DNA of 57,946 bases, taken from NCBI RefSeq assembly GCF_944388365.1, contig NZ_CALXIN010000006.1, positions 1 through 57,946 of the forward strand, read 5' to 3'. This document shows, in pieces, positions 4,880 to 8,130 of the stretch. Positions within the stretch are counted from its first letter, which is position 1. Each line of letters begins with the position of its first letter. The notes under the pieces are model-generated. The model was not told where the DNA came from. It did not search any database and was given only the letters and a program-made list of their open reading frames with translations. The translations under genes and the position numbers were made by a program. The DNA comes from an uncultured Negativibacillus sp. (GTDB taxonomy: Bacteria > Bacillota > Clostridia > Oscillospirales > Ruminococcaceae).

Positions 4880-4950
4880 AAGTTTCCTCCTGAATCGAAT
4901 TTTCATAATGGTTCCATTATCACAAACAATGAAAACCTTGAATTGTCCTT

Positions 4951-4979
4951 ATTATAACGCAGATTTTGGACCTCGTAAA
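4951..4979 (-). promoter_or_regulatory. Promoter of transglutaminase-like gene
   Basis: On minus, TTTACG (4974-4979), 17 bases, TATAAT (4951-4956), giving a leader of about 65 bases before the start codon. Confidence 0.65.
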
Positions 4980-4999
4980 GACAATTTTTGTAAATATTT

Positions 5000-5701
5000 T
5001 TATTTTTGTCTGAGATTTTCCTCATTTTCCTGCATTTCCTTCCAGATGGTCCAGGAATAGTAATAAATGAGAATCGTGGCTAAAATCATACTCAACAGCA
5101 GTACAAGTACACAGACAAAATCCGACAAAAACACTGCTGCAACAGCCCCAATCAATCCGGCTGTAATGTAGGCATATCCAGCAAAGCGCTGTGTATGTGC
5201 CCAGACATTCTCATCCGAAAGCGCATAGCGCGTGCGGAATCCGTGCTTTCTTTTAAGCCTGTATTCCCACGAAACTTTCGGCAGATAATTTCCTGTCACG
5301 ATAATCACAAGGGACATCAGTCCACAAACCACTCTTCCAAAAGAAATATCCAAAATATTGACTTGAGGATGGACTGTCACATACAAAATCATCGGCTGGA
5401 TAATATTGAAGATAACCAATGTCAGCAATCCTCCCGCCCGAAACCCTTTGGGCTGTCTGCCAAAGGACTCCTTGAGCAGCAGACTTCCCACTAAAATAAC
5501 AACCACGGATGGTATCAACAGCTCATACCTGCTTCCGTATCGGTCCGGTGTTCCACCGATGCCCCAGTGCACTGCCACTGTATCCGGCAGGAATGGGAGC
5601 AGAACCAGAACCTCCAGCATCGGAATCAACATTAGAAGCACGACCGCTACTCTCCAAAAACGAATATTTTTGATTGTCCTTTCGTTTGTATTTTTCATCA
5701 T
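5000..5701 (-). CDS. SdpI/YhfL-type integral membrane protein (DUF1648)
   Basis: This 233-residue protein has about six hydrophobic segments. It starts with the DUF1648 signature (LVLLPFLPDTVAVHWGIGG, then PDRYGSR) and continues with the SdpI-like half, including ENVWAHTQRFAGYAYITAGL. In B. subtilis, SdpI gives immunity to the SdpC toxin and works with the repressor SdpR. Here an ArsR-family gene lies directly upstream (gap 35 bases), which reproduces the sdpR-sdpI arrangement. No toxin gene (sdpC) is visible nearby, so a general envelope-stress or bacteriocin-sensing role is as likely as true immunity. ATG ATG at the start leaves the first codon ambiguous by one residue. Confidence 0.85.
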   Translation of the reverse strand: MMKNTNERTIKNIRFWRVAVVLLMLIPMLEVLVLLPFLPDTVAVHWGIGGTPDRYGSRYELLIPSVVVILVGSLLLKESFGRQPKGFRAGGLLTLVIFNIIQPMILYVTVHPQVNILDISFGRVVCGLMSLVIIVTGNYLPKVSWEYRLKRKHGFRTRYALSDENVWAHTQRFAGYAYITAGLIGAVAAVFLSDFVCVLVLLLSMILATILIYYYSWTIWKEMQENEENLRQK

Positions 5702-5736
5702 AATCCCTCTTTTCCAGACAGTGAAAAATCTTTTGA

Positions 5737-6030
5737 TTATGGATTTTCCTTTTCATCATCCTTGTCATCCTGATGGGAAAACTGTGCAATCCACATCATG
5801 ATTTCCTCAAACACGCTGGTATTCAGCTGATAATAAATGTAGTTTTTCTTTTTTTCTTCCACAATCAGTTCCGCTTTTTTCAGTTGAGACAGATGATAGG
5901 AAACGGTCGCTCCTGTCATATCAAAATGTGCTCCAATCTCTCCCGCGGACATTTTTCCTTTTCGTAAAAGCAGCAGAATCTCTCTCCTTACCGGATCGGA
6001 AAGAGCTTTGAACGTTTCTGCCAATCCCAC
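5737..6030 (-). CDS. ArsR/SdpR family transcriptional repressor
   Basis: A 97-residue winged-helix ArsR-type regulator: FKALSDPVRREILLLLRKGKMSAGEIGAHF, then the recognition helix MTGATVSYHLSQLKKAELI and a beta-wing KKKNYIYYQLN. It lacks the Cys pairs of metal-sensing ArsR proteins, consistent with the SdpR branch, which is sequestered by its membrane partner SdpI. The GTG at 6030 is chosen because GGGAG lies 8 bases upstream; a GTG three codons earlier would overlap that site. A perfect palindrome covers its transcription start, pointing to autorepression. Confidence 0.88.
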   Translation of the reverse strand: MGLAETFKALSDPVRREILLLLRKGKMSAGEIGAHFDMTGATVSYHLSQLKKAELIVEEKKKNYIYYQLNTSVFEEIMMWIAQFSHQDDKDDEKENP

Positions 6031-6051
6031 AATCCTCACTCCCTTAAAAAG

Positions 6052-6073
6052 TATTTAGAAAATTTTCTAAATA
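6052..6073. promoter_or_regulatory. Palindromic operator at sdpR promoter
   Basis: A perfect 22-bp palindrome: half-sites TATTTAGA and TCTAAATA with a 6-bp AT spacer. It lies directly after the -10 box and so covers the predicted transcription start. The same half-sites with the same 6-bp spacing recur at 6108-6129. Confidence 0.8.
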
Positions 6074-6074
6074 G

Positions 6075-6103
6075 ATTATAGCATCGCAACATAGAAAAAG
6101 CAA
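6075..6103 (-). promoter_or_regulatory. Promoter of sdpR-sdpI
   Basis: On minus, TTGCTT (6098-6103), 17 bases, TATAAT (6075-6080). The -35 box lies in the foot of the hairpin that ends the preceding gene. Confidence 0.7.
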
Positions 6104-6140
6104 CACCTATTTAGAAAAAAATCTAAATAGGTGTTGCTTT
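6097..6140 (-). terminator. Terminator hairpin containing a second operator copy
   Basis: A perfect 19-bp stem with a 6-base A loop, followed on minus by a U-rich tract. The top 8 bp of the stem are TATTTAGA/TCTAAATA (6108-6129), identical to the operator half-sites at 6052-6073. It ends the cytidylate-kinase-like gene and may also be bound by the repressor as DNA. Confidence 0.8.
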
Positions 6141-6155
6141 CAATCAAAATCTGTA

Positions 6156-6776
6156 TCAGCTCATCTTAATGTCCAGATAGGCTTTGACGATCTGCATACA
6201 TTTTTCCCAGCCCAGTGTAGCACTGTCCAGACACAGATCGTAGTTATCCGCATCCTTCCAGTCGCGGCCGGCAAAGTAACGATAGTAGTCGCCGCGGCGC
6301 TTATCGACCTTGCGGACAAATTTTTCTGCTTCCGCCTGATCCAGGTTGCGGATCTCCATGGTGGTCTTGACGCAGTTTTCAAACGGTGCATGAACATAGA
6401 CCTTCAGCACATTCGGACGATCCTTCAGCACAAAATCTGCACAGCGTCCGATGATGACGCAAGACTCCTTGTCTGCCAGCATCTTGATGATCTTTGCCTG
6501 ATAGTTAAACAGGTTCTGCTCCGAAACAAAGTTTTTGCTTCCTGGCGGAATCAGCTCGTCGGTGTAAACGCTCTTGGAGGGTTTGAAAAAGATGGGACGC
6601 TTGAGCTGTTCGTCCGACTCTGCAAACAGCTGCTCGCTGATTCCGCTGTCATCCGACGCCATGCGCAGAATCTCCATGTCGTAGCATGGGATTCCCAGAT
6701 GGTCAGCCAGCATCTTTCCGATGGTTTTTCCGCCGCTTCCGTATTCTCTGGCGATGGTAATAACGTAATTTTCCAT
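6156..6776 (-). CDS. Cytidylate kinase-like family protein
   Basis: A 206-residue P-loop nucleotide kinase of the Cytidylate_kin2 type. The N-terminus ITIAREYGSGGKTIGKMLADHLGIPCYD is the characteristic modified Walker A region, and later segments IIGRCADFVLKDRPNVLKVYVHA and DKRRGDYYRYFAGRDW are family hallmarks. These proteins are distinct from the essential Cmk, and their substrate is not established. The start at 6776 follows AGGGCGG; an ATG six codons earlier has no ribosome site. It is monocistronic and ends in the hairpin shared with the sdpR promoter. Confidence 0.85.
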   Translation of the reverse strand: MENYVITIAREYGSGGKTIGKMLADHLGIPCYDMEILRMASDDSGISEQLFAESDEQLKRPIFFKPSKSVYTDELIPPGSKNFVSEQNLFNYQAKIIKMLADKESCVIIGRCADFVLKDRPNVLKVYVHAPFENCVKTTMEIRNLDQAEAEKFVRKVDKRRGDYYRYFAGRDWKDADNYDLCLDSATLGWEKCMQIVKAYLDIKMS

Positions 6777-6885
6777 GCAATACCGCCCTTTCATATTATC
6801 ACTCTAAAGTGCTAAATCGCACTTTCCGTTTATTATAAAACGAATCCCTCCGAATTTCAAGTGATATTGCCGATTCTGACAAAAC

Positions 6886-8130
6886 TTAGATGGCGTAGAT
6901 TTTGTCTCGACCTGGATAGAGGTAGGTCAGCACGCCGTCCTCGGTGAAGGCGACCGTTTCCTCAGCACAGAAGCGCACCTTCTGTCCGCCCCACATAGCA
7001 ATGTTGCTCTGTGTATTCAGTTCCAGTGCATAACAGGTGTTTTTGTGCAGCGGGACATCGCCGTAGGCGCCGATGCCGTTCTGCATATCCCACAGTCCGA
7101 CGACCGTGCCCGCACTGTGTCCAAAGAAACCGATCGGATGGCAGTAGAGCGAAGCCTCGATGCCCTCCTCTTTGGCGCGGTCCAGGCTGTATTTCAGAAT
7201 TTCATTGCCGGTGCGTCCGGTCAGATGCTCCTGTGCAACAATGTCCTGGAAACGGCTGGTGCGGGCAAAGCCCTGCTGCAGCTCCTGCGGGACCTCGGTC
7301 TCGCCTTCGCGCAGCACATAGCCCAGACGCTGGCTGTCCGAGCACAGGCCAAAGTAGCAGATGCCGACGTCGTAGTGCAGCAGGTCGCCGTGGCGGATGA
7401 TCTCTCCGCAGCTGCCCAGACCTTCCAGTCCCTGACGCTGTACATCAACATGAGGACTGAACCAAAAGCGCAGGCCCAGACGGTTGATCTCCTGTGCAAT
7501 CCATTCCTCCACCTCAGTGGTCGTGGTGACACCTGGAACGATTACGCTGCGGGAGAATGCCTCCTCACAGATGTCCATTGCCAGACCGTAGATGGTGCGA
7601 TAGCGGGAAAGCTCCTCCTCGGTGCGCGCCTCAATCCAGCGGATTGCCAGCGGAGCTGCACTGCACAGCTTTGCACGATCCTGCTCATCCAGTGCCGCAG
7701 ACAGCTTATCATACAGCTCCTTAGAAAGTCCGTCGCACAGCGCGAAGGTAGCGGAGCAGTTGATACCGATCTTCTGCGGATTCCATTTGCGGACAAAGGC
7801 GGACAGCTCCTCCATCTGATCCTTTTTGATGTCGGTGTATGCCTGGGTATAGACGGTCGCCAGCCGCTCATCTGGACGGCCAAAATTATAGGCGCCGAAG
7901 TGATCTCCCTGCTTTACAAAAACCAGACAGGACAGGCGCCGCGCGGTCAGACACAGCGACGGAATCATAGTGGTAAATACAGGGTCCTCGTTGTACTCTC
8001 TGCACAGGATGATCCACATATCATAGCCGGTCTCCTCCATCAGCTGTGGAAGCAGGTTATGGATGCGATAGCGCAGGGAGTTGTCAAATACTTCAAATTG
8101 TTTTTTGAGTGAAACGGTCTGCCGCGTCAT
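6886..8130 (-). CDS. M24 family metallopeptidase (Xaa-Pro aminopeptidase-like)
   Basis: A 414-residue protein of the pita-bread M24 family, which removes N-terminal residues next to proline. All five metal ligands can be traced: Asp in LLHYDVGICYF, Asp in GLCSDSQ, His in FFGHSAGT, Glu in CYALELNTQ and Glu in CAEETVAF. An N-terminal creatinase-like domain of about 190 residues precedes the catalytic domain. The start at 8130 follows AAAGGGG; upstream ATG codons fall in a TATAAT-containing stretch (8159-8164) that looks like the promoter. It stands alone and probably serves intracellular peptide turnover. Confidence 0.88.
   Translation of the reverse strand: MTRQTVSLKKQFEVFDNSLRYRIHNLLPQLMEETGYDMWIILCREYNEDPVFTTMIPSLCLTARRLSCLVFVKQGDHFGAYNFGRPDERLATVYTQAYTDIKKDQMEELSAFVRKWNPQKIGINCSATFALCDGLSKELYDKLSAALDEQDRAKLCSAAPLAIRWIEARTEEELSRYRTIYGLAMDICEEAFSRSVIVPGVTTTTEVEEWIAQEINRLGLRFWFSPHVDVQRQGLEGLGSCGEIIRHGDLLHYDVGICYFGLCSDSQRLGYVLREGETEVPQELQQGFARTSRFQDIVAQEHLTGRTGNEILKYSLDRAKEEGIEASLYCHPIGFFGHSAGTVVGLWDMQNGIGAYGDVPLHKNTCYALELNTQSNIAMWGGQKVRFCAEETVAFTEDGVLTYLYPGRDKIYAI

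Follow-up and report, generated by a model that had tools for sequence, protein, structure and literature searches.

The window, the whole stretch of 57,946 nucleotides that was analysed, carries on its minus strand a cytidylate-kinase-like gene followed by sdpR and an sdpI-like gene (Table 1). Against the NF033789 family model the SdpR protein scores 129.5 bits, above the curated cut-off of 100, which places it in this family; its homologue in N. massiliensis is 95% identical. The first GTG of sdpR (6039) overlaps the ribosome-binding region, with AAGGGA at 6045-6040, and GTG 6030, 9 nt after AAGGGA, is more likely to be the start, since most homologues align from residues 2-4. The sdpI-like gene is presumed to be co-transcribed with sdpR as its partner; an SdpI/DUF1648 gene follows sdpR here and in 139 of the 140 similarity-fetched loci described below. 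The genome contains two more places with an SdpI domain (C12:41487-41702 and C5:48665-48865), neither with an operator copy at up to 2 mismatches. Metal-sensing ArsR/SmtB repressors usually have a cysteine-based metal site. The SdpR domain encoded here has no cysteine, and only 4 of the 96 homologues with an operator pair contain any; assignment as a metal sensor was set aside and the protein was filed as SdpR-type.

Table 1. Features of the sdpR locus, in window coordinates.
Feature	Position	Strand	Basis
sdpI-like membrane protein gene (DUF1648 and SdpI domains)	5000..5701	-	PF07853, PF13630 above cut-off
sdpR, predicted ArsR-type autorepressor, 100 aa from GTG 6039	5737..6039	-	NF033789, HTH_5, HTH_20
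Putative proximal operator, TATTTAGA-AAATTT-TCTAAATA	6052..6073	.	Kept upstream of sdpR homologues
-10 box TATAAT with TG extension (TGCTATAAT)	6075..6080	-	By eye and promoter finder
Hairpin, predicted intrinsic terminator for the kinase gene upstream	6097..6140	-	Fold, complementarity, terminator scan
-35 box TTGCTT	6098..6103	-	Hairpin foot; by eye and promoter finder (row L085); L005 has an identical box
Putative distal operator, TATTTAGA-AAAAAA-TCTAAATA	6108..6129	.	Register conserved
Cytidylate-kinase-like gene, co-directional, upstream	6156..6794	-	PF13189, 194 bits

Two palindromes flank the sdpR promoter. Both are present with 0 mismatches where the earlier note had placed them, and their centres are 56 bp apart, as it had measured. 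Its description of the two operators as identical holds for the 8-bp arms but not for the 6-bp centres (AAATTT versus AAAAAA); over 23 nt the sites agree at 87%. The proximal operator lies 1 bp downstream of the -10 box and covers the probable transcription start near 6068 (about -5 to +17), the distal operator lies 4 bp upstream of the -35 box (about -61 to -40), and a core of 34 bp separates the two sites. The promoter spacer between TTGCTT and TATAAT is 17 bp. The -35 box is weak and agrees with the consensus at 3 of 6 positions only, which is why a simple promoter scan did not list the sdpR promoter. None of 100 dinucleotide shuffles gave two or more palindrome matches at up to 3 mismatches, so the pair is not expected by chance. 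In the whole genome (2.3 Mb, 169 contigs) these are the only two sites at up to 2 mismatches, and 7 other places match the palindrome, each with 3 mismatches.

The distal operator also forms the top of a hairpin that begins 16 bp after the end of the kinase gene, whose stop codon is at 6156. The stem (6140-6122 / 6115-6097) comprises 19 bp with 100% complementarity and encloses a 6-nt loop, and a T-run follows on the minus strand at 6099-6093. The minus-strand RNA folds with -32.6 kcal/mol (z -9.65 against 200 shuffles), and the hairpin is the longest terminator-like site within 4900-6900. A stable stem, a short loop, a U-run and a position after a co-directional gene identify it as a predicted intrinsic terminator. 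Like other intrinsic terminators, it has a GC-containing stem and lies just after a co-directional stop codon; unlike ordinary ones, its stem tip would be a repressor site and its stem foot the -35 box of the next gene. In N. massiliensis one C:G pair of this stem is replaced by G:C, which preserves the pairing. Rfam at the gathering threshold gave no known RNA element in 5600-6900. The perfect 19-bp hairpin of the earlier note, topped by the distal operator and with the -35 box in its foot (arm 6097-6115), was thus recovered in full. Its further proposal, that termination of the upstream gene and control of the sdpR promoter share the same bases, is supported at the level of sequence by the presence of both the -35 box and the distal operator within the hairpin.

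Conservation was studied in the 80 best of 366 loci by SdpR similarity, taken from named genomes and leaning to the clade of the Negativibacillus locus, as well as in 30 loci from 100 relatives and 30 high-scoring loci from a family search of 299 phylum genomes. The earlier note had held that operators of this kind should be conserved upstream of orthologues, and this is what the search of the orthologous upstream regions returned: two sites 55-57 bp apart are found upstream of sdpR or its operon in 63 of the 80 similarity-fetched loci. Pair-bearing records include Paenibacillus, Cytobacillus, Clostridioides, Coprococcus and Robinsoniella, as well as a Treponema bin and a Chitinispirillia bin. 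The pair is absent in 17 of the 80 close homologues, in some of them owing to the end of the contig or flank or to a position of sdpR inside an operon; others (L026, L030 and L071) are truly single-site homologues. Among the loci from the 100 related genomes the pair was present in 6 of 30 (8 of 30 with looser spacing), and in the phylum sample, which represents another SdpR clade, in 0 of 30. The two-operator design is not universal across the SdpR family.

The spacing of the similarity-fetched pairs (n = 70) was 56 bp in 51 cases, 57 bp in 15, 55 bp in 2, and 62 and 65 bp in one each. With no spacing limit, distances in the 140 loci cluster at 56 (54 pairs) and 57 bp (14 pairs), and a handful lie at 8, 16 and 72 bp, those at 16 and 72 bp arising from a third Ruminococcus site. 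In the Ruminococcus loci L012, L021, L025, L027 and L076, the proximal operator is followed 16 bp downstream by the start of this third, overlapping palindrome, so that three sites are present. Altogether, the 140 real loci contain 200 sites at up to 2 mismatches, and Markov-generated sequence contains 0.3 per set. On a quick tree with a midpoint root, poorly resolved and with many related loci, the 119 rows on one side include 93 of the 96 pair-bearing proteins, and the 49 rows on the other side include the remaining 3. Loci L115-L144, of the other SdpR group, often show a single array of TTAGA half-sites in steps of about 8 bp around the start site.

The reverse search used DNA alone: 391 genomes of the class were scanned for two copies of TTTAGAN6TCTAAA separated by 36-40 bp. 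It yielded 30 pairs in 29 genomes, and the reversed pattern, used as a control, gave 0 pairs in every one of the 391. At the loci of 29 of the 30 pairs, which include the Negativibacillus locus itself and one repeat (L150 of L109), an SdpR ORF lies directly downstream in 29/29 and an SdpI-like ORF is present in 28/29, the exception, L157, being a short contig. Within the genome pattern search the link of the predicted site to sdpR is exclusive. The SdpR family thereby gains a concrete candidate operator with a strict layout, and SdpR-controlled operons should be findable by DNA alone, since every examined pattern-fetched genome locus had sdpR. A scan of viral sequences for the pair returned 3 contigs, of which L176 holds sdpR-sdpI and L174 has the pair as a repeat inside a long ORF. 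In the remaining contig (L175:4584-4784), several TTTAGA-6-TCTAAA-like palindromes surround a promoter with an XRE-like regulator ORF beside it; SdpR is absent there, and the motif may have been adopted convergently.

The register of the operators to the promoter was determined for 95 similarity-fetched and pattern-fetched pairs, with 3 duplicate loci and the 2 pairs at 62 and 65 bp left out. A promoter finder left free over the interval put 78 of the 95 pairs at 4 bp to the -35 box and 1 bp to the -10 box; with shuffled interiors the same register was reached by 1.2 pairs on average and by 6 at most. Operator spacing correlates with promoter spacer length (rho 0.61, n = 95), and of the 16 pairs with operators 57 bp apart, 12 have a promoter spacer of 18 bp. 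Because the spacing tracks the spacer length, the operator-operator distance appears to be a by-product, each site being fixed to its own box, and this argues for a two-sided block of RNA polymerase and against a rigid bridge. The earlier note had envisaged a repressor bridging the promoter; in such a model two SdpR dimers would touch each other and bridge or loop the 34-bp core. Two equal sites at a near-constant spacing in many species would suit such an arrangement. However, the spacing varies with the promoter spacer, and it is the distance to each box that is constant; in addition, 56 bp is about 5.3 helical turns, which puts the sites out of phase and leaves little length for a DNA loop, and ArsR-type proteins are usually simple dimers. 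Contact between the dimers is therefore unlikely, that part of the earlier note is not supported, and it is simpler to assume that the two sites flanking RNA polymerase are occupied independently. Both operators are probably bound by the dimeric ArsR-type repressor whose gene lies immediately downstream, and the bracketing of the sdpR promoter by two sites for it, as put forward earlier, is supported by their conservation upstream of orthologues. The presumed recognition helix is TGATVSYHL in proteins with the operator pair and KPSISHHL in the array group; a small set of five proteins whose promoters carry TTAACATTTAG-type sites has ASISRHL. The SdpR relatives at L103, L105, L108, L111 and L112 combine helix ASISRHL with the different palindrome TTAACATTTAG...CTAAATGTTAA. 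Recognition-helix residues and operator type change together between clades, as expected if SdpR reads the sites. That a regulator other than SdpR binds the palindromes finds an argument in the viral contig L175, with its similar palindromes beside an XRE-like regulator ORF. It is very improbable in view of the sdpR gene directly downstream in all pattern-fetched genome loci and the joint change of site and helix.

Extension of the operator dyad into a hairpin is found well outside Negativibacillus. In 22 of the 95 loci the distal dyad is extended by at least 5 perfect bp towards or into the -35 box, whereas 1.5 such loci are expected from permuted flanks, in which left and right flanks of different loci were paired (maximum 6 in 1000 permutations). 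The proximal operator has an extension of at least 5 bp in 3 of the 95. The mismatch and T-count thresholds were chosen by us, and the excess of dyad extension holds both with perfect pairing and with one mismatch. The -35 boxes of the extended loci vary (TTGACA, TTGACT, TTGCTT, TTGAAA), and the left arms match the locus's own box. A hairpin with a T-tract occurs in 12 of 63 loci below co-directional upstream genes versus 0 of 27 below divergent ones (Fisher p 0.015; 5 of the 95 loci, with less than 300 bp upstream, were left out). Extended loci have more T after the -35 box; still, 12 of 24 are without 5 T in 8, so that extension alone is no proof of termination. The terminator-like state (15 of 95 by our own criterion) needs at least 11 changes on a poorly resolved tree. 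As judged from these sequences, the predicted operator-terminator overlap recurs in other lineages and is not unique to Negativibacillus.

Terminators and operators are both inverted repeats, and the hairpin could in principle be an ordinary terminator whose tip resembles an operator by chance. The probability of this is practically negligible, given the 16/16 match at the exactly conserved 56-bp register and the recurrence of this fusion, with different sequences, elsewhere in the family. A different role has been considered for the distal site, which might mainly be an A-tract UP element that raises promoter strength and where the repressor competes with the alpha C-terminal domains (alpha-CTD), the proximal site providing the block. 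The distal site has the position for it, at about -61 to -40, and its 6-bp centre lacks both G and C in 78 of the 95 loci versus 44 of 95 for the proximal one (p 3e-6), a bias that persists in the 69 loci without hairpin extension. Yet conservation of the distal arms (0-1 mismatch in 61/70) nearly equals that of the proximal arms and exceeds what a UP element would require, and the A/T bias may instead serve DNA bending or the hairpin loop. We regard a mainly UP-element role as possible but doubtful. A combined reading is offered tentatively: the distal operator may be at once a repressor site, an A-tract UP element and a repeatedly gained terminator whose stem includes the -35 box, the terminator having been gained where an upstream gene runs into the distal operator. 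If this were true, evolution would be using one set of bases to close a toxin-sensing, immunity-type promoter to initiation as well as to read-through, and SdpR could be displaced for a moment from the distal site when the neighbouring gene is transcribed.

The two-sided block remains the preferred reading: the SdpR-SdpI promoter is probably self-repressed, locked on both sides by its own repressor, with the distal site serving also as a terminator. One SdpR dimer would occupy the proximal operator, which directly follows the -10 box and covers the start site; a second would occupy the distal operator, directly ahead of the -35 box, in the region where RNA polymerase would touch the DNA with its alpha C-terminal domains. 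While both operators are filled, the 34-bp core would be unusable by the polymerase. In Negativibacillus, SdpR would presumably be released when its membrane partner SdpI captures it, as the B. subtilis precedent suggests. In Negativibacillus the arms of the distal palindrome appear to have been extended across the -35 box, with the T-run behind them, so the bases of the distal site would also stop transcription of the upstream kinase gene and shield the repressed operon from read-through. Binding, repression and release by SdpR, like termination at the hairpin, are inferred here from the DNA. The two-sided lock is a prediction open to a reporter assay.

The gene order corresponds to that of the sdpRI immunity operon of B. 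subtilis, in which the gene for an ArsR-type repressor of the SdpR family precedes that for an SdpI membrane protein, but the Negativibacillus genome is without a detected SdpC toxin (no match by TIGR04032, which among 14 control genomes matched B. subtilis only). The original B. subtilis work is reportedly that of Ellermeier and colleagues from 2006. More than one palindrome for a repressor at a promoter is familiar from the SmtB, TetR and LacI systems; the sdpR sites differ from these in being locked at 4 bp to the -35 box and 1 bp to the -10 box across distant lineages, and in that one operator can double as a predicted intrinsic terminator. B. subtilis SdpR is described as an autorepressor sequestered at the membrane by SdpI, with AbrB also involved, and the accessible text of that paper describes no sdpRI operator layout (PMC1626106). 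According to a 2025 paper, no member of the SdpI family other than SdpI itself has so far been characterised (PMC11995493). In searches of open-access literature, no description of SdpR operators was found. Autorepression by SdpR is thus known, and the strict, conserved two-sided layout of the putative operators and their recurrent overlap with predicted terminators would be new. The locus offers a natural case in which operator, promoter box and terminator would be the same bases, and other lineages show how such overlaps may arise.

The pair is also found on plasmids and at some distance from sdpR. Two plasmids were taken from the 25 matches listed in a plasmid scan: that of Ruminococcus albus 7 has a YhfC-sdpR-sdpI operon headed by the pair, and the SdpR homologue on that of Staphylococcus equorum is without a pair. 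The leading gene of the R. albus operon encodes a YhfC-type intramembrane protease. In L006, L008, L063, L076 and L177, sdpR-sdpI lies behind other genes, and the pair is at the operon head, about 0.8-2.3 kb upstream.
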